Shown here one piece after another: positions 4,938 through 32,829 of a stretch of DNA of 33,122 bases. A program made the translations under genes and the position numbers. The notes under the pieces are model-generated. The model saw nothing but the letters and a program-made list of their open reading frames with translations. It did not search any database and was not told the origin of the DNA. This DNA comes from Candidatus Hydrogenedentota bacterium. GTDB taxonomy: Bacteria > Hydrogenedentota > Hydrogenedentia > Hydrogenedentales > SLHB01. The stretch is taken from NCBI GenBank assembly GCA_016215105.1, contig JACRLJ010000105.1, positions 1 through 33,122 of the forward strand. The letters run 5' to 3'. Within the stretch, counting starts at the first letter, position 1, and each line of letters opens with the position of its first letter.

Positions 4938-5924
4938 TTACTTCTCCGATTTCCAATGCTTGATTCTCCGAGCTCCGAGCATACCGGCGCCCATGCAACC
5001 CAGCATGATCATCGTGATTGGTTCGGGAACCGGCGGGACAGTAACCTGCGGCGTGGTGCCGTAGTCGTTTCCGCAGTCTTCGGTCCAGAACGAGCGTACG
5101 TTGACGCCACTGGCTCCGTTCAGGTTATGGGCCGTCAGCCACGCTTCGCTAAGGTAAACCTCGATTACATTATGGTCATACGGGTTCCAATCCAAAGGTG
5201 ACGTACTTGCGTACGGAAACGTGTTTGGATGGTTCTGGTTATCCCATTGACCTGTTGCAAGCAGACCGAGGAAGGGATCAATAGCCTGGCCGCCAGAAAC
5301 GATGTCACTATAGGCAAACGCTGTACCTGCGGTGCTGGCGGCAGTCAGGTCCGTAGCGGCGCCGGTTCGGATTTGGTTGGGTGCAACGCCGGTATACGCC
5401 AGTCCAGACGTGAACCACGGGTTAAGGGTGTTGTTTGACACATACACGTGTCCTGCGGTGTACCCATTATTTCCATTAGTCTCGATGGCGAGGTCGTAGC
5501 TACCATTGCTTCCGAAATCTAGGAAGAGGTCCCCCGGCAGGTATGTCGGGGCGCTGCCACCCCAATTGGCCACGCCGTTTCGATCAAAACCCGTTACAAC
5601 AGCCAGATACAGGCCTTGGCCGCTCGGCGAGGTGTTGTCGTAATACGCGTACATCGCCTCCAAGTCGTAGTTTTGTCCGCCGTAGCCCGGGCCGACGTAA
5701 CCATTGGTTCCGACACTGTCTTCCACCCACACTGCATAGCCTCCCGCTGTGGGAGTGAATGCGAGGAGTCCGGGATCTACCGCCCCGTATATAGCAGCCA
5801 TATTCACGTCCCAGTCCGCGATACTGCCGTCGACCAGCGTCGGGGTTGCGCCTGCCGAGTATGGCAACATCGCGAGCGCAGCTGCCAGAATTGGCACTGC
5901 AATTTGTAGCCGTAGCACCTTCAT
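4938..5924 (-). CDS. PEP-CTERM sorting domain protein (328 aa)
   Basis: The chosen start is ATG 5924, which has AGAGGAGG 8 nt upstream and begins directly with a signal peptide (MKVLRLQIAVPILAAALAML, cleavage after about residue 26). A longer frame to 5987 runs into the leader hairpin and is rejected. The body has no family I can name; it is rich in Gly, Asn, Thr and aromatic residues, as exported structural proteins are. The C-terminus is a textbook sorting tail: VPEP at residue 299, a hydrophobic segment (MIMLGCMGAGMLGA), then the basic end RRIKHWKSEK. Exosortase is expected to cleave near the PEP motif and release or anchor the protein at the outer surface. Its leader resembles that of the gene starting at 6886. 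Confidence 0.9.
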   Translation of the reverse strand: MKVLRLQIAVPILAAALAMLPYSAGATPTLVDGSIADWDVNMAAIYGAVDPGLLAFTPTAGGYAVWVEDSVGTNGYVGPGYGGQNYDLEAMYAYYDNTSPSGQGLYLAVVTGFDRNGVANWGGSAPTYLPGDLFLDFGSNGSYDLAIETNGNNGYTAGHVYVSNNTLNPWFTSGLAYTGVAPNQIRTGAATDLTAASTAGTAFAYSDIVSGGQAIDPFLGLLATGQWDNQNHPNTFPYASTSPLDWNPYDHNVIEVYLSEAWLTAHNLNGASGVNVRSFWTEDCGNDYGTTPQVTVPPVPEPITMIMLGCMGAGMLGARRIKHWKSEK

Positions 5925-5963
5925 TACCCTATCCTCCTCTCGGGGCTGCCGCACCCAGCAGGG

Positions 5964-6046
5964 AAAAACAAAAAAAGGCCTGCGCAAGAAAACCCTCGTT
6001 TCTTGCGCAGGCCTTAGTTCTCGTACCTAAACCATTGCCCTTATCT
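5964..6046 (-). promoter_or_regulatory. Attenuator-like leader with perfect 17-bp hairpin and T tract
   Basis: On the minus strand a 17-bp perfect stem (5975-5991 with 5999-6015; AAGGCCTGCGCAAGAAA arm, 7-nt loop) is followed by seven T, one G and five T, the form of an intrinsic terminator. It lies between the promoter at 6053-6081 and the PEP-CTERM start at 5924, so it would stop most transcripts before the gene unless read-through is controlled. The bases before the stem (AAGGGCA..GG, then AGAACT) match those in the leader at 6744-6820. Confidence 0.7.
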
Positions 6047-6052
6047 TTATCC

Positions 6053-6081
6053 ATGTTACCATTGGTGTTCCCGCGTGTCAA
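6053..6081 (-). promoter_or_regulatory. Sigma70-like promoter of the minus-strand PEP-CTERM gene
   Basis: On the minus strand TTGACA (6081-6076) is followed after exactly 17 bases by TAACAT (6058-6053). An A tract (CCCCAAAAAACTTC) lies just upstream, as in the promoter at 6709-6737. Initiation is expected near 6046. Confidence 0.7.
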
Positions 6082-6137
6082 GAAGTTTTTTGGGGACCAC
6101 AATCCGCGCGTAAGGGTTGTGTTGGTCCGGCGCTCTT

Positions 6138-6186
6138 GTGGCTTGGCCTTCCAGGCCACGGTTCTTGGGCAAGATGCCCAAGCCAC
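6138..6186. repeat. Nested palindromic intergenic element
   Basis: Outer arms GTGGCTTGG (6138-6146) and CCAAGCCAC (6178-6186) enclose two further inverted repeats: GGCC..GGCC around 6145-6156, and CTTGGGCA-AGA-TGCCCAAG at 6164-6182. The form suggests a REP-like repeat or MITE remnant. No second copy is visible in this window. Confidence 0.5.
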
Positions 6187-6517
6187 ATTGCGTCCCCCTC
6201 TTGATGCTATTTGTGTGGGTGAGCGCTCCGTTTGACTGGGGTGTACAGCAAATGCGCCGTTACTTACGCGCGGATTGTGGTGGGGATTACTTTGGTTCCT
6301 AGAGTGACTCGAAGCGCGGCCAGAAGGCCTTCCCCCTATGGCAGAACTCCGCGAAGGCCAGCACCGGTGTCAACAGCCTTCAAACGCTTTCAGGCCGCAC
6401 GGCGCCATTTGGAGGAGCTGGCGGAAGTCCCAGGAATGGCCTCCCGATATTGTCCCGGGGGGCAAGGGAGCGTTTGCGCTGGCGCGCGACGTCGAAATGA
6501 CCGCACAGCGCTAGCAA

Positions 6518-6637
6518 TCCGGCCAGAAAGTTGGTCTTTTGACGCGGCGCAGCCAGAATGCATCTGCAAGTTGTTCAATACCAGCGCTGGATCGTGCGGG
6601 GTTTTGCTATGTGGAGACTTTCTGGCCGCGCCTCTAG
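6518..6637 (+). repeat. 120-nt dispersed repeat, copy A
   Basis: It aligns without gaps to 32710-32829 in the same orientation, with 96 of 120 bases identical by my count. Its ends carry inverted GGCCAGAAAG (6521-6530) and CTTTCTGGCC. In the middle most differences fall at every third base and leave the plus-strand peptide CKLxNTSAGSCGVxL nearly unchanged, which hints at a coding origin. There is no start codon or ribosome site, so I do not call a gene. Confidence 0.8.
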
Positions 6638-6668
6638 TCTGGACGGAAGTGAACCAAATTCGAGGACA

Positions 6669-6687
6669 GCGGGCCGGACCGGCCCGC
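6669..6687. promoter_or_regulatory. 19-bp dyad upstream of PEP-CTERM promoter
   Basis: GCGGGCCGG (6669-6677) and CCGGCCCGC (6679-6687) form a perfect inverted repeat around one A. It ends 21 bases upstream of the -35 box at 6709, where a regulator could bind. No T tract follows on the plus strand, so a terminator role is less likely. Confidence 0.35.
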
Positions 6688-6708
6688 GAAAATGGCCAAA
6701 AAAACTTC

Positions 6709-6737
6709 TTGACAAATAGGATACTTTGGGCTAGAGT
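6709..6737 (+). promoter_or_regulatory. Sigma70-like promoter of the PEP-CTERM gene at 6886
   Basis: TTGACA (6709-6714), a 17-base spacer and TAGAGT (6732-6737). The bases before it (CCAAAAAAACTTC) match those before the minus-strand promoter at 6053-6081. Initiation is expected near 6744. Confidence 0.7.
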
Positions 6738-6743
6738 CATATT

Positions 6744-6820
6744 TGTTAGGCAAGGGCATAGGTTGGATTTCAAGAACTCAGGCCTGCGCAAGAAAAGAGT
6801 ATTTTCTTGCGCAGGCCTTT
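6744..6820 (+). promoter_or_regulatory. Matching attenuator-like leader with 17-bp hairpin
   Basis: A perfect 17-bp stem (6780-6796 with 6802-6818, loop GAGTA) has almost the same arm as the hairpin at 5975-6015. It is followed by TTTCTGTTCTCC, a weaker T tract. The upstream leader bases AAGGGCATAGG and CAAGAACTC match the other leader. The hairpin ends about 67 nt before the ATG at 6886. Confidence 0.65.
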
Positions 6821-6885
6821 CTGTTCTCCGCGACGATTGGCGTGGTGGAAAGATCCTTGGGGTTAGGCCGAGAAAGGAGCGCACG

Positions 6886-7542
6886 ATGAGCACGGGAAGG
6901 CGAGTACTAACGTCATTAGCCCTTGTTCTCGCTTCGGGGGCGGCGTTGGCGGACAGCGTAGTGTTTCTCGATGGCTTCGAGAGTTACAGTTCCGGCTCCA
7001 TCTTGAACTGGACACCACCAGTGAGTTCACCATGGACCCTGAGCAATGGCACAATTGACTTGATTCATACGGGTAACTATGCGTTAAGTGCATCAGCCGG
7101 ACTGGACTTGCTCAACGGCCAATCGTTCTTCCTGGATATGGACGGCTCGACCCATCAGGCAGGTCTGCTGGACCTTCACAATATCCTGACACCTGGCCAG
7201 CAATACCAACTCGACTTCATTGTGTCCGGTAACCAGCGTGGCAATATAGGCTACACGACTTCCGATACGGTGGATGTAGCTCTGCTTCAAGGCTCCACTG
7301 CGATCAGTCTTGTCAACACTACCCTAGCCCACAACGCCCCGTGGCAAATTCAGAATGCTACGTTTACCTACCAGAGCGGTGACATCATTCGGTTCAGGGA
7401 CCTTGGGTCGACGGACAACGTGGGGTACTTGCTCGACAACGTTCGGATTTCGGCGGTTCCGGAACCCATCAGTATGGTGATGCTCGGCTTCCTTGGCGCT
7501 GGGATGCTTGGCGTAAGAAAGCTGAAAGGCAAGAAACAATAA
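6886..7542 (+). CDS. PEP-CTERM sorting domain protein (218 aa)
   Basis: ATG 6886 has AAAGGAG 6 nt upstream and begins a signal peptide (VLTSLALVLASGAALA, cleavage after about residue 22). The mature part opens with FLDGFESYSSGS and ends with GYLLDNVRIS, a pattern common in beta-sandwich, lectin-like PEP-CTERM proteins. I infer a carbohydrate-binding-like fold without naming the family. The sorting tail starts at residue 191: VPEPISMVMLGFLGAGMLG and a basic end (RKLKGKKQ). It has Phe where the other two tails have Cys. It is probably an exosortase substrate placed in or on the EPS matrix. Its promoter and leader resemble those of the divergent PEP-CTERM gene. Confidence 0.9.
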   Translation: MSTGRRVLTSLALVLASGAALADSVVFLDGFESYSSGSILNWTPPVSSPWTLSNGTIDLIHTGNYALSASAGLDLLNGQSFFLDMDGSTHQAGLLDLHNILTPGQQYQLDFIVSGNQRGNIGYTTSDTVDVALLQGSTAISLVNTTLAHNAPWQIQNATFTYQSGDIIRFRDLGSTDNVGYLLDNVRISAVPEPISMVMLGFLGAGMLGVRKLKGKKQ

Positions 7543-7761: not shown

Positions 7762-8499
7762 ATGAGAGTGTTAATCAGAGGAACAGGCATTCTAATGTTT
7801 GCTCTGTTCCTCATCGCCGGAAGCGCTTCGGCGAATCTGGTTACGGAGTTTGTGGATTCCGCTGATACGACAGCATACGCTGTCGATCCATGGTCGTTGA
7901 CGGTGAATGTGATATCCGATCCGCTCAACAACTTTGACCTGCTTCGGTTCCAGATACTGGGAGATCTTACTACCGGCACAATGGCGCCGAGCGGGTGGAG
8001 CACAACGAATACGTACACCACCACCTTTGAGCCACCTACGGTGATTCCTCCGACAGTTCCCGTCGGCTGGAATCAATCGTGGCTCAATGGGTCGCTGGTG
8101 GGATCGCAGCCAGCCAATACCATCCTGGATATTGTAGGTTCAAATACCGATCAGGTGCGAGTCCAGTTGAATTTCACTGGCATCTGGCAGGACATGAGCG
8201 GAGCTGCCTATCCAACAGAGGTGGGTGTTAGCGGGTCTCCAAGCCACTACCTAAACATGTTGGTGACCGCATGGAGTTGGGATAGTTACGGCTCTGTGTA
8301 CAACTTCGCGGGCGGGAATGTATTCGGCTTTTACTGGGATCCTGCGAGTTCCGGTTCCGGCAACCATCTGTCATACAACCCGACGGATGTGCATGGTCCC
8401 CCGCCGGTTCCCGAACCGGTAAGCATGGTTATGCTTGGGTGCCTAGGCGCGGGGATGCTGGGCGCACGTAAGCTAAGGAGCAAGAAAGCGGCCGCGTAA
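7762..8499 (+). CDS. PEP-CTERM sorting domain protein (245 aa)
   Basis: ATG 7762 follows AAGGAGG by 8 nt, the best ribosome site in the region. A signal peptide (ILMFALFLIAGSASA) ends at about residue 24. The body (aromatic, Asn- and Ser-rich, WSTTNTYTTTFEPP, FYWDPASSGSG) matches no family I can name. The sorting tail begins at residue 216 with VPEPVSMVMLGCLGAGMLGA and ends RKLRSKKAAA, nearly the same as in the protein encoded at 4938-5924. The gene lies 219 bases after the previous PEP-CTERM gene. The gap does not contain the leader hairpin found before the other two, so it may be transcribed from its own signals or by read-through. Confidence 0.88.
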   Translation: MRVLIRGTGILMFALFLIAGSASANLVTEFVDSADTTAYAVDPWSLTVNVISDPLNNFDLLRFQILGDLTTGTMAPSGWSTTNTYTTTFEPPTVIPPTVPVGWNQSWLNGSLVGSQPANTILDIVGSNTDQVRVQLNFTGIWQDMSGAAYPTEVGVSGSPSHYLNMLVTAWSWDSYGSVYNFAGGNVFGFYWDPASSGSGNHLSYNPTDVHGPPPVPEPVSMVMLGCLGAGMLGARKLRSKKAAA

Positions 8500-8549
8500 G
8501 AAGTAACTAGCGGTCTACTGTTACCGCAAATTGACGAGTCGTGCCTGGT

Positions 8550-8579
8550 GGAGCACGAGGGCAGTAGCCCTCGTGCTCC
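8550..8579 (+). terminator. Hairpin after the PEP-CTERM gene
   Basis: GGAGCACGAGGG (8550-8561) pairs perfectly with CCCTCGTGCTCC (8568-8579) around CAGTAG, 51 nt after the stop at 8499. The T tract is poor (GTTGCATT), so termination may be partial. Confidence 0.6.
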
Positions 8580-9085: not shown

Positions 9086-9514
9086 ATGGAAAACGAACCG
9101 AGTCTCTTGCGGTGGGCAGTGAACTATGAGTTGCGATGTTGTGAGCGGTACCGAAGGTTCATGTCGGTAGTGTACGTGAGCCACGAGGGGCGGGAGCGGT
9201 TCCCCGATGCCTTTAGTGACGTGCTGCGAAGTTCCGATGTCTTGGTGAAAGCGCACTCTTCGTCGGCGCTGCTTATGGGCGAGACGAGTAAGCAGGGCGC
9301 TTTGCGGGCAGTAGAGCGGTTCAAATCTCAATGCGGAGATCTGATCAACATGAAATATGCCGTGGCGAGCTATCCAACGGACGGGCGCACCGCGGACGAC
9401 CTGTTGTCGACGGTCCGAGAGCGGCTTGCAGCGGCGATGAACCGGGAAAACGGCGTTGTGGTCTGGTCGTCGACGGCAAGGCAATCGAACAACGCTACGA
9501 ATACAAGTATTTGA
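9086..9514 (+). CDS. Degenerate GGDEF-like domain protein (142 aa)
   Basis: This is the first gene after the sigma54-type site. The pattern follows a GGDEF domain: an early helix with ERYRRFMSVVYVSHEG, then RSSDVLVKAHSSSALLMGET where an active enzyme has its GGDEF turn, then GALRAVERFK, then KYAVASYPTDGRTADDLLS, which is the typical end of the fold. The GGDEF motif is absent (SSSALLMGET at about residues 57-67), and the domain is shorter than usual, so it is probably not a cyclase. It may bind a partner or sense a nucleotide. GGGGGAAAG lies upstream of the ATG at a loose distance. No signal peptide or membrane segment is seen. The resemblance is my reading of the pattern and needs a profile search. 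Confidence 0.6.
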   Translation: MENEPSLLRWAVNYELRCCERYRRFMSVVYVSHEGRERFPDAFSDVLRSSDVLVKAHSSSALLMGETSKQGALRAVERFKSQCGDLINMKYAVASYPTDGRTADDLLSTVRERLAAAMNRENGVVVWSSTARQSNNATNTSI

Positions 9515-9634
9515 AAGCGCCCGAGTGTGGTTCTTAGCGTTCGGGCTTTGCGTGTTTGGGCATAGATTGTCGTGGATTCCAAACCGGCCACTTGGCCCTG
9601 GGTATTGATGAGATTTCTAGAAGGAGAGCGCCAG

Positions 9635-11299
9635 ATGGCGCAAGTCGATGAATCCTCCGCAAGCGCGCGGGAGCAGTTGGAGCTCGTCCGTCGCGTCCTT
9701 CGGAAGAGATGGTGGATGTTGGGTGTGCTCGCCGTTGTGGGGGGGATAACTGCGTTTGGAACGGCGAAGATGCTTAGTCCGGTCTACGAAGCTTCGACGA
9801 CAGTTCGCATACTCCGCCAGCCTGTTCTTGGCGGGGACCCTTCTCAGGCGCGGCCGGCCGGTACGAGGAATTCGTTATCTGCGGAGGCGTCGTGGCTGAC
9901 GAGCAGTATGGTATTGAGGCCCGTAATAGACCGACTCGCCCTGGTTGACACCCCCCCGAGTTCAGCCCTCGAGGCCGCTATCTGGCGTGGGGAAAAGGCG
10001 TTGAAGCGATTCTTCGGCGGCGCAAGTCGTGATGATGCCCGCCCCTTTGAGTTGATGGACCAATTGCGAAATAAAGCCATTAAGGTCAAAGAGCTGCAGG
10101 GGTTTGACGCGCTTGAGATTCACGTGCAGTGGCATGATCCCGAGATGACCATGCGGTTGGCCAACACCATAGTTGATGTGTTTATCGAGCGATTTACAGA
10201 ATCCAGCAAGGGGGTATCGAGGCAGAAAAAGGAATACCTCGAAGCCCAGGTACAACTCGTGAAGTTACAGCTAAACGACTCTGAGGCCAAGCTCGCGAAT
10301 TTCCAGAAGAAGACGGGAATCGTGTCGACTGATGGTACGCAGATCGGTTTCCCGAAAGGGGCCGGTACGCAACAACTTATGGTCGAGAAGCGGCAACTGG
10401 AACTGCAGTACGCAGCCGCCACTGCCGAACTTCAACAGCTTGACGCCCGCATTGAGAATAAGGATACGGGAAAAAAGAAGCCTGCTAGTGACTCCCTCAG
10501 GGCGGCGCTGAAGAACCCGAACTCCATGCTTCGGATGCTGTTGAGTCAGGCGGTCATCGCGGAAGCTGAGGTGACCAAGATGAAGAGCACCTATACGGAT
10601 GAAGGTTTAGCTACTTCGCGCGCGGCACGGGACTTGGAATCCCTCAAGACGCGCCTAGCCGGGGAACTGAAGCAACTTGGCGCCGATCCGGAAATGGCTA
10701 TGGACGACCTGTTCGTGATGGTCCAGCAGGAGGAACAGGACGCGGGTGTTTCTGAATCCCTGCTCGCCCGGTATGAGAGTGACCGCTTGAGTTTGGCAGC
10801 GCGTATTAAAACATATGCGGACCAACTGTCGAGACTCGACGCGGAAATTGGCCAAGCGGAGAAGGAATCCAAGAGCCTGCCGGATGAACTTCAGCAGTAT
10901 ATGGCGCTGACGCGTGAAAAACGGGTAAACGAAGAACTCTACACAAGGTTATGCGCGCAGTTGTCAGGCGCTCAAGTGGATGAAAATTCCAAGCTGTACG
11001 ACGTCAACGTGTTTGAACCGGCCCACCTGCCGACAGAGGCAACTAAACCGAAGCCCATGCTAATGGCGGGTGTTGGCACGTTTCTGGGCCTGTTACTAGG
11101 TATTTGTGTTGCGTTTTCCCTGGAGTACCTTGACGATTCGCTGCGCACGAGTCAGGAGGTCCAGTACTACCTGGGCCTGCCCGTCTTGGCGGAGATTCCC
11201 AAAGTAAAGGTCCACAAGAAAGCGCTCTTTGCCAAGAATTTGCCAAAGCTGGCTTCTCTCCCATGTGACGGGAAACCGGCGGCGCACAATAAGGCCTAG
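9635..11299 (+). CDS. Polysaccharide chain-length determinant / co-polymerase (Wzz/GumC type, 554 aa)
   Basis: It controls polymer length in Wzx/Wzy-type assembly and sits in the inner membrane with a large periplasmic part. ATG 9635 was chosen over an earlier start at 9572 because AAGGAG lies 8 nt upstream. TM1 is at about residues 24-46 (RWWMLGVLAVVGGITAFG), preceded by basic residues. The periplasmic part has long coiled-coil stretches (about 170-440; KEYLEAQVQLVKLQLNDSEA, LQQYMALTREKRVNEELYTR). The Pro-rich approach PAHLPTEATKPKP leads into TM2 (about 473-495) and a short cytoplasmic tail. The kinase-like gene that follows is separate, as in GumC/EpsB-type pairs. The tail is not fused to a kinase. 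Confidence 0.9.
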   Translation: MAQVDESSASAREQLELVRRVLRKRWWMLGVLAVVGGITAFGTAKMLSPVYEASTTVRILRQPVLGGDPSQARPAGTRNSLSAEASWLTSSMVLRPVIDRLALVDTPPSSALEAAIWRGEKALKRFFGGASRDDARPFELMDQLRNKAIKVKELQGFDALEIHVQWHDPEMTMRLANTIVDVFIERFTESSKGVSRQKKEYLEAQVQLVKLQLNDSEAKLANFQKKTGIVSTDGTQIGFPKGAGTQQLMVEKRQLELQYAAATAELQQLDARIENKDTGKKKPASDSLRAALKNPNSMLRMLLSQAVIAEAEVTKMKSTYTDEGLATSRAARDLESLKTRLAGELKQLGADPEMAMDDLFVMVQQEEQDAGVSESLLARYESDRLSLAARIKTYADQLSRLDAEIGQAEKESKSLPDELQQYMALTREKRVNEELYTRLCAQLSGAQVDENSKLYDVNVFEPAHLPTEATKPKPMLMAGVGTFLGLLLGICVAFSLEYLDDSLRTSQEVQYYLGLPVLAEIPKVKVHKKALFAKNLPKLASLPCDGKPAAHNKA

Positions 11300-11401: not shown

Positions 11402-12304
11402 ATGTTTAGGAAGAAAGATAGAAGAAAGCTAGGCGAGAAGCTCCTGGAATCAGGCAAGATAAGCCAGGACCAGCTTCACGGGCTTCTCGAACAGCAGCAA
11501 CGGTGCGGCCGGTACCTGGGCGAACTCGTCGTTGCGGACGGGTACATCACCGAGCACGAGCTGTATGCGCTACTTCCCAAGGCCGCGACAAAAGGGGGTC
11601 TGTTCGCACTGAATCCGCGCAACGCGCTCGACATAACCGAATTGTATCTTCAACAGACCGCGATGAAGTTCACTCTGTTTTCTGACGAGCCGATTCGGAC
11701 AATTCAGATTACTAGCGCGATGCCGGGGGAAGGAAAGACAACGTGCGCCCGATACTTGGCGCAAACACTGGCCGCGGTACAGCAGGGGAGATATCTTCTG
11801 GTAGACGCCGATCTGGTCAATCCGACGCTTCACCTGCGACTGCATCTGCCGCCGGTGCCTGGTTGGACGGACTATCTCGTTAATGGGAATACCTTGGACG
11901 AGTGCATTGCCAATACCGAAATCGAAAACCTAAAAGTACTGGCCGCGGGAAGTCTGCCTCCGAATCCCGCGGCGATATTCGCCTCGAAGAAGATGAAACA
12001 TTTTGTCGAGGAATTGAAAGAACGGTTCGACCTAATCGTGTTCGACTCAAGTCCGGTGCTTACCATGTCAAGTGGCGCTGCGCTAGGCGCCGGACTTGAT
12101 GCCGCAATTATGGTCGTACAAGCGGGTCGCACAAAGCGTCAGATGGTCAAGAAGGCCCTGGCTCTGCTGAGCGAGTCACGCACGAATGTCATCGGAGTTG
12201 TGTTGAACCAAGCCGTGGACAATCAGCTCTCGTACTACGGATATGAGCGCAGCCAGTACGCGCGGAGAAACGGGTCAACAAAGCACTATACAGAGAAAGT
12301 CTAG
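11402..12304 (+). CDS. BY-kinase-like (CpsD/CapB) ATPase with N-terminal GspE-N-like domain (300 aa)
   Basis: This is the likely cytoplasmic tyrosine autokinase partner of the preceding Wzz-type protein. Residues about 7-55 (LGEKLLESGKISQDQLHGLL, LGELVVADGYITEHELYALL) resemble the N-terminal domain of type II secretion and pilus ATPases. The kinase part has Walker A MPGEGKTT (about 107), Walker A' LLVDADLVNP (about 133-142; the usual form is DADLRRP) and Walker B LIVFDSSP (about 211). A tyrosine group at the end (LSYYGYERSQYARR, then HY) is the expected phosphorylation cluster. ATG 11402 is preceded by GGAGG only 4 nt away. The N-terminal addition and the altered Walker A' are unusual. Confidence 0.88.
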   Translation: MFRKKDRRKLGEKLLESGKISQDQLHGLLEQQQRCGRYLGELVVADGYITEHELYALLPKAATKGGLFALNPRNALDITELYLQQTAMKFTLFSDEPIRTIQITSAMPGEGKTTCARYLAQTLAAVQQGRYLLVDADLVNPTLHLRLHLPPVPGWTDYLVNGNTLDECIANTEIENLKVLAAGSLPPNPAAIFASKKMKHFVEELKERFDLIVFDSSPVLTMSSGAALGAGLDAAIMVVQAGRTKRQMVKKALALLSESRTNVIGVVLNQAVDNQLSYYGYERSQYARRNGSTKHYTEKV

Positions 12305-12394: not shown

Positions 12395-12964
12395 ATGAAC
12401 GCAAAGAATTCAAGGACTCGTGATGTGATGTTGGCAATTTCAATAGTACTAATGGCGATTCTCTTCTGGCCCGCGTTTGAGTACGCGTGGGCCAAGTGGG
12501 ACACCGATCCGAACTACGGTCACGCCTATTTCGTACCTTTCGCGACAGGCTATCTCGTCTGGCGGAAGAAATCCATCCTTTGCTCGCAGGCCTTGGCCCC
12601 TTCCAGCACGGGCTACTTTCTATTGGCGCCGGCAATATTCCTGCATATCCTGGCCAACAACGCGAGCTTGCTGAGACTATCTCTAATCGCGTTCGACGTA
12701 GCGCTAGCGGGGCTCGTGGTCTTGTTTTTTGGATGGGGCATGTTGCGGAAAGTGATCTTCCCGCTGGTTTTCTTATTGCTCGCCGTGCCCATTCCGCTCT
12801 ACTTGGAGTCCACTACGCTTCCAATGAAGCTCGCCGCGTCAAGCGCTGCGGCAAGCATCTTGAACATCGTTGGAATGAGCGTGTTTCGGGAAGGAACGAT
12901 TATTCACCTCTCGAACTTATCACTTGAGGTCGCAACGGCCTGCAGTGGAATACGTGTTACGTGA
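12395..12964 (+). pseudogene. Exosortase, N-terminal part (broken by deletion/frameshift)
   Basis: Exosortases are polytopic membrane cysteine transpeptidases that process PEP-CTERM tails. This frame gives 189 residues with several membrane helices, the typical NYGHAYFVPFATGYLVWR region and EVATACSGIR, which holds the catalytic Cys. It stops two codons later (TGA 12962-12964). The remaining part, with the conserved Arg and His, follows in another frame at 12961. Compared from memory with intact exosortases, about 13 residues are missing between CSGIR and the next stretch, so some 37-40 bases appear lost. TACGTG occurs twice at the junction, a slippage signature. As written no intact exosortase is made. 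Confidence 0.85.
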
Positions 12965-13233
12965 CACAGGAAACCAATGCGCGGCGATGGGTTGTATTCT
13001 TGGCATCGATACCAATTGCTCTCGGCGCCAATATTGCCCGGATCATCGTTACGGCGCTACTTTCCAACAGCGTCAGCAGCGAAAGGCTGCACACCGTCAT
13101 CCACGATTTTTCAGGCGGTTTCGTATTCGTAATCGCCGGCCTGCTATTCGTGTTGACGGGAGTCCTTATGGATGCGTTCTCACGGTATTGGAAACCGGAG
13201 ACCGCGTCGAGCGAGGAAGGGAGGAGTAAGTGA
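12961..13233 (+). pseudogene. Exosortase, C-terminal part (broken)
   Basis: The 90-residue frame starts at GTG 12961, overlapping the previous stop by GTGA, and continues the exosortase: WVVFLASIPIALGANIARI (NxxR motif with the conserved Arg) and HTVIHDFSGGFVFVIAGLL (conserved His), followed by a membrane helix and a polar tail. The overlap would allow coupled translation of a second polypeptide, but one expected helix around the join is largely gone, so I consider it a broken gene and not a true two-part enzyme. The stop overlaps the EpsI start (GTGA). Confidence 0.82.
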
Positions 13234-13871
13234 GAGTGGGCGAGGGAAATGCGAAGTTCGCCATTCTACTGGCCTTTCTCGGAGTCAGCATATTCTTGGT
13301 GTATCGACCGAGCGCGGCAGCCAGTGGTCACGGTGGCGTCGCGCTTGGAAACCTTCCGCTTACACTGGATAAGTGGACCTCGAAAGAAGGCCGCCTTTCA
13401 GACGAGGTCCTGGCCACTCTAGGGGCCAAGGACTACTTGGTGAGGGAATATCAATCAGGAAAGACGAAGGTGACTCTCTACATCACGTATTTTGATACCG
13501 GTAGCGGGTCACTTACGCACAACCCGGAGAAATGTTACACCGCTTCGGGCTGGACATTCTTGAACAAGAAGACGGCACAAATCCCAGGTACGAATTGGCT
13601 GGCGCTGCAATCCACCCTGGCGCGTGGAGAGGACCGTCAGGTCGTGGTGTATTGGTACCAGATTCGTGATCGGATCCTGCTAAGCAAGACGCGGCAGGTG
13701 TGGAGCGTGGTATGGCGGGCGCTAGCTGCGAAATCGACAGATAGCCTTGTGGTGTCGGTTTCAACCCAGGTGGGAAGCGCTGATCCGGAAACTAAGGGCC
13801 AGGAATTGCTGCAATTTGGCGCGCTGGCCATGAATGCTCTGATGGAAAAGGGGCTAGATGCGCAACATTGA
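13230..13871 (+). CDS. epsI: EpsI family protein, DUF3485 (213 aa)
   Basis: EpsI-like proteins accompany exosortase, as separate proteins or fused to its C-terminus, and are thought to act in EPS export or sorting. The GTG start overlaps the exosortase stop by 4 bases and has GGGAGGAG upstream; GTG 13236 is an alternative. A membrane or signal anchor lies at about residues 8-27 (FAILLAFLGVSIFLVYRPSA). The family signature is clear: PLTLDKWTSKEG early, YFDTGSGSLTHNPEKCYTAS with GW following (about residues 87-108), and VVVYWYQIRDR later. Length is normal for the family. Its intactness next to a broken exosortase is notable. Confidence 0.88.
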   Translation: MRVGEGNAKFAILLAFLGVSIFLVYRPSAAASGHGGVALGNLPLTLDKWTSKEGRLSDEVLATLGAKDYLVREYQSGKTKVTLYITYFDTGSGSLTHNPEKCYTASGWTFLNKKTAQIPGTNWLALQSTLARGEDRQVVVYWYQIRDRILLSKTRQVWSVVWRALAAKSTDSLVVSVSTQVGSADPETKGQELLQFGALAMNALMEKGLDAQH

Positions 13872-31507: not shown

Positions 31508-32706
31508 TTACTAACGGAATCGTGATACTTCTAATCTTAGCGGCGCTGGGCTGTCTGGCCTGCGCGTTGTACCTGATCATACTTCTGGGGGCAGCGTTGG
31601 TCGGCGGGACTGGCAAGGCGACCAAGATCGCCGCCGAGTTGAAGCTGGTGGTGGTGATCCCTGCACACGACGAAGAGAAGCTCCTTGCGCGCACTATAGG
31701 GAGCATACAGTGTTGCGATTATCCCAGTGAACTTCGCGAAGTCGTCGTCGTGGCCGATAACTGTACGGACCGCACTGCCGATGTCGCTCGGGCGTGTGGA
31801 GCCACTGTTCTCGAACGGACAGACGCGTCGCGCCGGGGGAAAGGGCACGCGTTGGACTATTTCATCGGACAGTACTTGGCGAGTCATGAGTTGGTGAATG
31901 CGGTGATAGTGATCGACGCGGATAACGTCGTAACGCCCAACCTCCTGGCGGCGGTTAGCCAACGCGTGGTTGAGGGGTGCGTCGCTGGACAAGTACGCGA
32001 TGCGGCGGACAATGCCGAAGAAGGATGGCGGCCGTCGATGCAGTACATCAGCCTTGCGCTGAAAAACCACGTCCGGGCGCTCGGACGCCAGGCGCTCGGG
32101 TGCTCGGGGGGGCTTTTCGGCAATGGGATGTTCTTTTCGCGGGACCTGCTTCTTGGGCGGGGTTGGCCTGCCACTTCCATCGTCGAAGACGTGGAGTTCG
32201 CCTCTCGGCTGATTATGGAAGGCGTCAAGATCGCTTACGCTCCTGAGGCGTCGGTTAGTACGAGCATGCCCGTGTCGAGCGCCGCAGCTGAGGCGCAGAA
32301 GTCCCGGTGGGAGGCGGGTCAATTCCGCATGGCGAGGAGTTGTGGCATCCCGCTGCTCAGGCACGCGGTCCTGACGTTGTCGCTGGATGCCCTGCTCTGG
32401 GGTATTGACTTGATGATTCCTCCACTAATGATGCTTTTTGCCTTCGCCGGTTTGGTACTTGCGGTGTCAGTGGTCGGACTTGCGCTGTCATCGAGCAGTC
32501 TCATGATTGCGCTGGCTTCGGTCAGTGGCGCTGCGAGTGTTTTGCTTGTGGTTTACGCCATTGGGGGGCTTTGGTGTTCTCGCGCCCCAAAATGCGTGTG
32601 GTTTAGCCTGCTTAAGTTACCGGCGTACGGGCTCTGGAAGGCTGGATTGTACTTGGGTATGGCGGTAAATGGCGCCCCGAAGGAATGGGTACGGACAGGA
32701 CGCTAA
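31504..32706 (+). CDS. Membrane GT2 glycosyltransferase with QxxRW motif (400 aa)
   Basis: ATG 31504 overlaps the previous stop (ATGA) and follows GGAAA. TM1 is at residues about 5-30. The GT-A domain shows VVVIPAHDEEKLLARTIGSI, VVADNCTDRTAD, VIDADN (about 137-141, DxD), SIVEDVEFASRLI (ED at about 228) and QKSRW (about 265, the QxxRW motif of processive synthases such as cellulose and hyaluronan synthases). Several helices end the protein. It may be a polymerising or single-sugar enzyme on a lipid carrier; QxxRW by itself does not decide. It is the last complete gene of the operon. Confidence 0.86.
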   Translation: MITNGIVILLILAALGCLACALYLIILLGAALVGGTGKATKIAAELKLVVVIPAHDEEKLLARTIGSIQCCDYPSELREVVVVADNCTDRTADVARACGATVLERTDASRRGKGHALDYFIGQYLASHELVNAVIVIDADNVVTPNLLAAVSQRVVEGCVAGQVRDAADNAEEGWRPSMQYISLALKNHVRALGRQALGCSGGLFGNGMFFSRDLLLGRGWPATSIVEDVEFASRLIMEGVKIAYAPEASVSTSMPVSSAAAEAQKSRWEAGQFRMARSCGIPLLRHAVLTLSLDALLWGIDLMIPPLMMLFAFAGLVLAVSVVGLALSSSSLMIALASVSGAASVLLVVYAIGGLWCSRAPKCVWFSLLKLPAYGLWKAGLYLGMAVNGAPKEWVRTGR

Positions 32707-32709
32707 GAC

Positions 32710-32829
32710 TCCGGCCAGAACGCAGGCTATTTGACGCGGCGCGCCCAGAAAGCAACTGTAAGTTGCTTAACACGAGTGCTGGCTCTTGCGGAGTTACGCT
32801 ATACGGAGGCTTTCTGGCCGCGCCTCTAG
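32710..32829 (+). repeat. 120-nt dispersed repeat, copy B
   Basis: Gap-free match to 6518-6637 in the same orientation (96/120 by my count). The left end has GGCCAGAACG, one base off a perfect inverted match to the right end CTTTCTGGCC. It starts 3 bases after the stop of the last complete EPS gene and ends 16 bases before the next ATG, so it fills the gap. Confidence 0.8.

Follow-up and report, generated by a model that had tools for sequence, protein, structure and literature searches.

The window, which is the whole stretch of 33,122 nucleotides analysed here, contains two divergent genes for PEP-CTERM proteins, each preceded by a leader consisting of a promoter, a conserved 5' core and a hairpin, with a second PEP-CTERM gene following on the plus strand.

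4938..5924, minus strand: gene for a 328-aa PEP-CTERM protein with tail VPEPITMIMLGCMGAGMLGARR of the GAGM class; the hairpin lies 50 nt ahead of the start codon
5962..6015, minus strand: intrinsic-terminator hairpin of the minus leader; 17 bp with a 7-nt loop at 5975-6015, T tract at 5974-5962
6009..6040, minus strand: 5' core of the minus leader, GGGC AAUG GUU ... AAC UAAG GCCU; predicted antiterminator hairpin P1/P2
6053..6094, minus strand: A tract and sigma-70-like promoter of the minus leader, TTGACA-17-TAACAT at 6081-6053
6696..6737, plus strand: A tract and sigma-70-like promoter of the plus leader, TTGACA-17-TAGAGT at 6709-6737
6754..6785, plus strand: 5' core of the plus leader, GGGC AUAG GUU ... 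AAC UCAG GCCU; predicted antiterminator hairpin P1/P2
6780..6830, plus strand: intrinsic-terminator hairpin of the plus leader; 17 bp with a 5-nt loop at 6780-6818, weaker T-rich tail
6886..7542, plus strand: gene for a 218-aa PEP-CTERM protein with tail VPEPISMVMLGFLGAGMLGVRK of the GAGM class; the hairpin lies about 67 nt ahead of the start codon
7762..8499, plus strand: gene for a 245-aa PEP-CTERM protein, also GAGM-class; it comes second after the plus leader and has no separate leader

An earlier note on this DNA had read TTGACA-17-TAACAT (minus) and TTGACA-17-TAGAGT (plus) promoters behind a common A tract, and both are present as described. The same CCAAAAAA(A)CTTC tract precedes each of them, and they are the only sigma-70-like sites in 5800-7000, where shuffles lead to an expectation of 0.3; no good second promoter was found in the window spacers between hairpin and start codon. 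The leader bases that the note reported as shared are indeed shared, with 83% identity across 69 nt in addition to the A tract and the -35 region, but the conserved stretch is longer than was described and takes in the AGGCC of the terminator 5' arm. Each leader has the perfect 17-bp hairpin that had been claimed, with unlike loops of 7 nt and 5 nt, and the tail that follows is a full T tract in the minus leader (TTTTTTTGTTTTT) and a weaker one in the plus leader (TTTCTGTTCTC). Compared with shuffled sequence, both hairpins fold much more stably (z = -5.3 for 5975-6015 and -4.8 for 6780-6818; 0/200 shuffles as good), and the minus-leader core overlaps the 5' arm of the minus terminator. The note had recognised no known riboswitch pattern, and at the Rfam level a known riboswitch is excluded: the window has 0 matches above the gathering threshold, with chance-level matches only at E<=10.

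The leader family in the parent genome

Further copies of the leader first came to light when the parent genome was searched with a 16-nt arm and at the DNA level. A covariance model built from seven copies (R1) returned 10 intact sense copies from the 6.7-Mb genome with E values of 1e-19 to 1e-7, and a second model built from all ten intact copies (R2) scored those same copies at 64-86 bits (E 1e-19 to 4e-13). The intact copies are distributed over contigs C68 (two), C15 (one), C103 (two), C27 (three), C161 (one) and C24 (one). An eleventh, on C149, is interrupted by ten Ns of an assembly gap; its promoter and the first part of its core lie on one side of the gap and the end of its hairpin on the other. 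The many copies that the earlier note had expected amount to 11, with 10 intact ones found by covariance model and one broken by the gap, and given these copies a chance likeness of the two window leaders is excluded. All copies are in sense orientation and upstream of an open reading frame, the reverse-strand model matches being the same hairpins read backwards.

Every intact copy has the same order of promoter, 5' core of about 32 nt, intrinsic-terminator hairpin of 13-19 bp, and gene. The distance from hairpin to start codon is 50-210 nt in ten copies (50-76 nt in several), and that from the -10 element to the core is 13-32 nt. The copy on C161 (L027, C161:23742-23818) lacks a sigma-70 site and has TGGCATTGCTCTTGC at the proper place, a 9/10 match to the sigma-54 consensus. 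It is the sole copy with a sigma-54-like promoter, as a good -24 GG / -12 GC site was found only there among the ten copies and the others scored at shuffle level, and the RNA core behind this promoter is unchanged. Retention of the leader behind a sigma-54 promoter suggests that control acts after initiation, at the RNA level.

The hairpin, a GC-rich stem-loop followed by a T-rich tail, has the form of an intrinsic (Rho-independent) terminator, with a weak T tract in the plus-strand window copy and in the C161 copy. Alignment A5 of the ten copies shows pairing over 95% of the terminator stem and two-sided changes at 10/17 pairs, and 0/500 shuffles were as good; the compensatory changes that had been predicted are therefore present, and in the C24 copy the stem sequence is almost wholly different. 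All ten copies have the same AGGCC, which belongs both to the core and to the terminator 5' arm, whereas at two positions the partners on the 3' side have changed so as to pair as G.U (in four copies and in one copy); this indicates that the 5' arm is constrained by more than terminator pairing.

The core does not share this drift of the stem: its GGC (with one C to T), GUU, AGAAC (with one A to G) and AGGCC are constant. Folded on its own to minimum energy, the core adopts GGC[ANAG]GUU-loop-AAC[WVAG]GCC, with small variations, in 9/10 copies, and its seven antiterminator pairs all hold in 10/10. Column 3 closes the hairpin with column 34, as GU, GC, AU or CG across the ten copies, the inner stem reaches four pairs through column 10-27 or 14-23 in most of them, and the loop ranges from 8 to 10 nt. 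Two changes within the core hairpin, both in the copy C27c, keep pairing as G.U. Covariation support for the core hairpin is real but modest, as the whole hairpin has one two-sided change and its score is reached by 20/500 shuffles; the core folds better than shuffles in some copies only (p 0.007-0.37). As this hairpin uses the GGCC(N) base of the terminator 5' arm, the two folds exclude each other, and such a mutually exclusive alternative sharing bases with the terminator is predicted in all ten copies. When the core hairpin is forced, its outer stem ends exactly at the start of the remaining upper terminator stem in 10/10 copies, and the resulting antiterminator state is predicted to be 7-16 kcal/mol less stable than the full terminator state. 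The leaders contain no conserved start codon or leader-peptide open reading frame, which makes ribosome-mediated attenuation unlikely.

Genes behind the leaders and their distribution

As the earlier note had stated, both genes behind the window leaders encode a PEP-CTERM tail at their end; these two and the gene at 7762-8499 have a C-terminal TIGR02595 tail above the curated cut-off. A tail profile search of the genome identified eight genes, and no more, as members of the class PEPxxMxMLGCxGAGM; they score 69-75 bits, with the next match at 36. Seven of the eight have the leader directly upstream, the eighth, 7762-8499, comes second after the plus leader, and the leader stands before every transcription unit encoding GAGM-class PEP-CTERM proteins. 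By comparison, it precedes none of the approximately 12 PEP-CTERM genes with other tails in this genome (7/8 vs 0/12, Fisher p 1e-4; 2e-5 counting first genes only). The probability of 7/11 copies falling within 250 nt upstream of the eight GAGM-class genes by chance is about 1e-25. The expectation that copies would always stand before PEP-CTERM genes held for these seven and failed for the other four, which precede the following genes.

C103:108438: Ig-like surface protein of very large size, its C-terminus sorting-like
C27:1552: TPR protein
C27:8765: small ORF, unassigned
C27:12902: HDOD-like protein (named by eye), some 350-400 nt from the leader, then a GAF/PAS histidine kinase

Three leader copies (L026, L055, L056) lie on one 13 kb contig, C27, and the leader-bearing genes there are possibly the regulon's own signalling genes. 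With a near-identical leader before eleven genes, including all GAGM-class units, the proteins are probably induced together by blocking the stop.

Covariance-model searches for the copies that the earlier note had proposed to look for in relatives, of limited reach in their first pass, found none. R1 gave no full-length match with the core across 59 relatives; the sole full-length match among them (G047, 28 bits) was without the core on inspection. R2 found no copy in 67 other genomes of the phylum, except for one hairpin-only match. The core pattern with two mismatches allowed yielded no copy in 24 other family genomes, its matches in genus g3 being within coding-like sequence and without the hairpin. 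Searched for in 85,000 species genomes and in viral contigs, the exact core pattern, which would miss diverged leader forms, had 4 and 1 matches, respectively, all coding or chance and none with a leader. Tails of GAGM type were absent from relatives above 34 bits, vs 69-75 bits in the genome itself, and no similar leader was found upstream of the relatives' PEP-CTERM genes. As relatives are without both, the element and the tail class appear jointly in one lineage, and the leader is known from one genome assembly only.

A candidate transcription attenuator

We consider it likely that the element is a cis-acting transcription attenuator, off by default, that defines a regulon. RNA polymerase would start at the promoter, copy the core of about 32 nt and, by default, meet the intrinsic terminator of 13-19 bp, in most copies 50-200 nt ahead of the start codon, and stop. 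Alternatively, the core is predicted to fold as N-GGC[ANAG]GUU-loop-AAC[WVAG]GCC-N, with its outer stem capturing the GGCC base of the terminator 5' arm. Judging from the NasR and LicT mechanisms, the shortened terminator stem, moved off the U tract, would permit read-through. Given that the antiterminator state is the less stable one, a factor should be needed to hold the core hairpin; this may be an RNA-binding protein or a small ligand that reads the conserved internal loop and the apical RAG. Under its signal, exosortase-sorted surface proteins of one class would be induced together with a few linked genes. The earlier note's proposal, that exosortase substrates are controlled by a cis-acting RNA or by antitermination, is supported by the copies and their covariation, for one tail class of PEP-CTERM gene only.

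A bolder and doubtful reading is that the core represents a new class of sensor, either a riboswitch aptamer among the smallest of its kind, with the ligand-bound hairpin breaking the terminator, or an antiterminator-protein site, that would switch on a whole surface-protein set defined by its sorting tail. If this is true, tail class and RNA leader would evolve as a matched pair.

Attenuation by competing hairpins has precedents with which the proposed attenuator can be compared. ANTAR-responsive leaders have two tandem hairpins with small fixed loops, unlike the single core hairpin found here with its conserved internal loop and variable loop of 8-10 nt. In NasR antitermination, the antiterminator hairpin shares the terminator base, and stabilising it shortens the stem and parts it from the U tract; the predicted antiterminator here likewise shares the terminator base, as in ANTAR/NasR-AmiR leaders (PMC3369936). 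A search for an ANTAR-domain gene gave no match in the genome and was silent in control genomes too. The regulon consists of surface proteins and not of sugar uptake genes, unlike that of BglG/LicT, and the core sequence, we presume, differs from RAT. What the predicted core hairpin has in common with LicT-RAT is a short imperfect stem interrupted by an internal loop, together with its exclusion of the terminator, the antiterminator of LicT-RAT being likewise mutually exclusive with its terminator (PMC3369936).

Sibling small RNAs are the best placed of the other explanations and are still unlikely. Here, RNAs of about 70 nt made up of promoter, core and terminator would act in trans, and the genes would use their own promoters or leaky read-through. 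Every unit does have a promoter and a strong terminator that would give a discrete short RNA, and the core is conserved though the hairpin sequence drifts. However, all copies being sense and upstream of an ORF, seven of them before one gene class, argues for control in cis, as do the start codons that lie just 50-76 nt past the hairpin in several copies with no better promoter there. The AGGCC of the core also sits inside the terminator, as competition in cis would predict.

There is a smaller chance that the core is a DNA operator, bound as double strand by a regulator just downstream of the promoter, with the hairpin as a by-product. The high conservation of the core near the start site would fit this, as would two CWNAGG half-motifs that recur about 20 bp apart. 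The compensatory changes are of RNA type, however, and the variable core loop (8-10 nt) and promoter-core distance (13-32 nt) are unlike a fixed operator, with the spacing between half-motifs varying as well. The same core occurs behind the sigma-54 promoter, and an operator leaves unexplained why a terminator of diverged sequence is kept.

Processive antitermination of the RfaH/LoaP type is common for polysaccharide operons, and the GGCATAGG core bears what we take to be a loose resemblance to the ops site. Under this explanation a specialised NusG paralogue would be recruited at the core as a pause or recruitment site. The window leaders adjoin the exosortase/exopolysaccharide cluster, and RfaH/ops and LoaP are likewise cases in which a leader element controls termination near exopolysaccharide genes (PMC7819879). 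Against this, a second NusG family member was not found, the 95% complete assembly having one NusG-domain protein above cut-off, and the targets are mostly one- or two-gene units. We regard this explanation as very improbable, and the single NusG also makes a specialised NusG unlikely as the factor holding the core hairpin. Least probable of all is a constitutive role of the 5' hairpins in mRNA stability or in insulation against transcription from upstream. Stems of 13-19 bp do exceed what a terminator needs, but such a role does not require conservation of the T tract and single-strand core, and with the only good promoter upstream of the hairpin insulation would silence the gene itself.

PEP-CTERM genes are known to be under sigma-54 regulation by PrsK/PrsR, with a regulon-wide upstream motif, and in the same study many PEP-CTERM genes were left without an assigned mode of control (Haft 2006, PMC1569441). 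The leader family resembles this system in its regulon-wide upstream motif, in the sigma-54 site of the C161 copy and in a sigma-54 response regulator near the cluster, and differs from it in that promoters are mostly sigma-70-like and the common element is a transcribed RNA and not a promoter motif. None of the papers searched ties PEP-CTERM or exosortase genes to antitermination or RNA leaders. We describe a new family of RNA leaders and the putative regulon that it defines, both seen in a single genome, of a kind (terminator/antiterminator attenuation) that is already known and with a strikingly specific set of targets. This candidate RNA leader groups PEP-CTERM genes into a regulon that matches their tail sequence. 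If the attenuator reading is true, a class of exosortase substrates is controlled after initiation, surface proteins produced together become predictable from the leader, and the 32-nt element offers a testable means of fishing out its factor.

Surroundings of the leaders

The window runs on into an exopolysaccharide/exosortase cluster, which includes sugar transferases and the following genes.

9572-11299: chain-length protein
11402-12304: tyrosine autokinase with an N-terminal MshE-type c-di-GMP-binding motif (NF053729 above cut-off)
12395-13233: exosortase, split in two frames; the first ORF stops shortly past the CSGI cysteine motif
13230-13871: EpsI

The plus leader is not claimed to head this whole operon, as a 13-bp hairpin and a gap of about 1 kb follow the second PEP-CTERM gene. 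That hairpin (8549-8579, GGAGCACGAGGGC/GCCCTCGTGCTCC) is perfect and has no T tract. A small ORF at 9086-9514 appears by eye to be a degenerate GGDEF-like sequence and has no Pfam match. The MshE-type motif of the autokinase hints at c-di-GMP control of the polysaccharide. The remainder of the split exosortase (NIARI...H) lies in another frame with no Ns nearby, and represents either a frameshifted gene or an assembly error; a second exosortase is intact at C71:16099-16803. Downstream of the cluster are a TPR protein, a sigma-54 response regulator and a histidine kinase, a trio that resembles the PrsT/PrsR/PrsK set (Haft 2006, PMC1569441).

Finally, two kinds of repeated or insertion-like sequence occur in the window. 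A dispersed repeat of about 128 bp, with ends like CGGCCAGAAAGT...ACTTTCTGGCCG, occurs at 6510-6638 and 32701-32829 and also on C68 (at about 45.5 kb), C24 (two), C103, C27 and C41, with several near leader copies; it has the appearance of a non-autonomous mobile element (MITE). A 186-bp stretch at 6096-6281, bounded by a perfect 19-bp inverted repeat (ACCACAATCCGCGCGTAAG) and with a further imperfect hairpin inside, forms a second insertion-like element in the interval that separates the two divergent genes.
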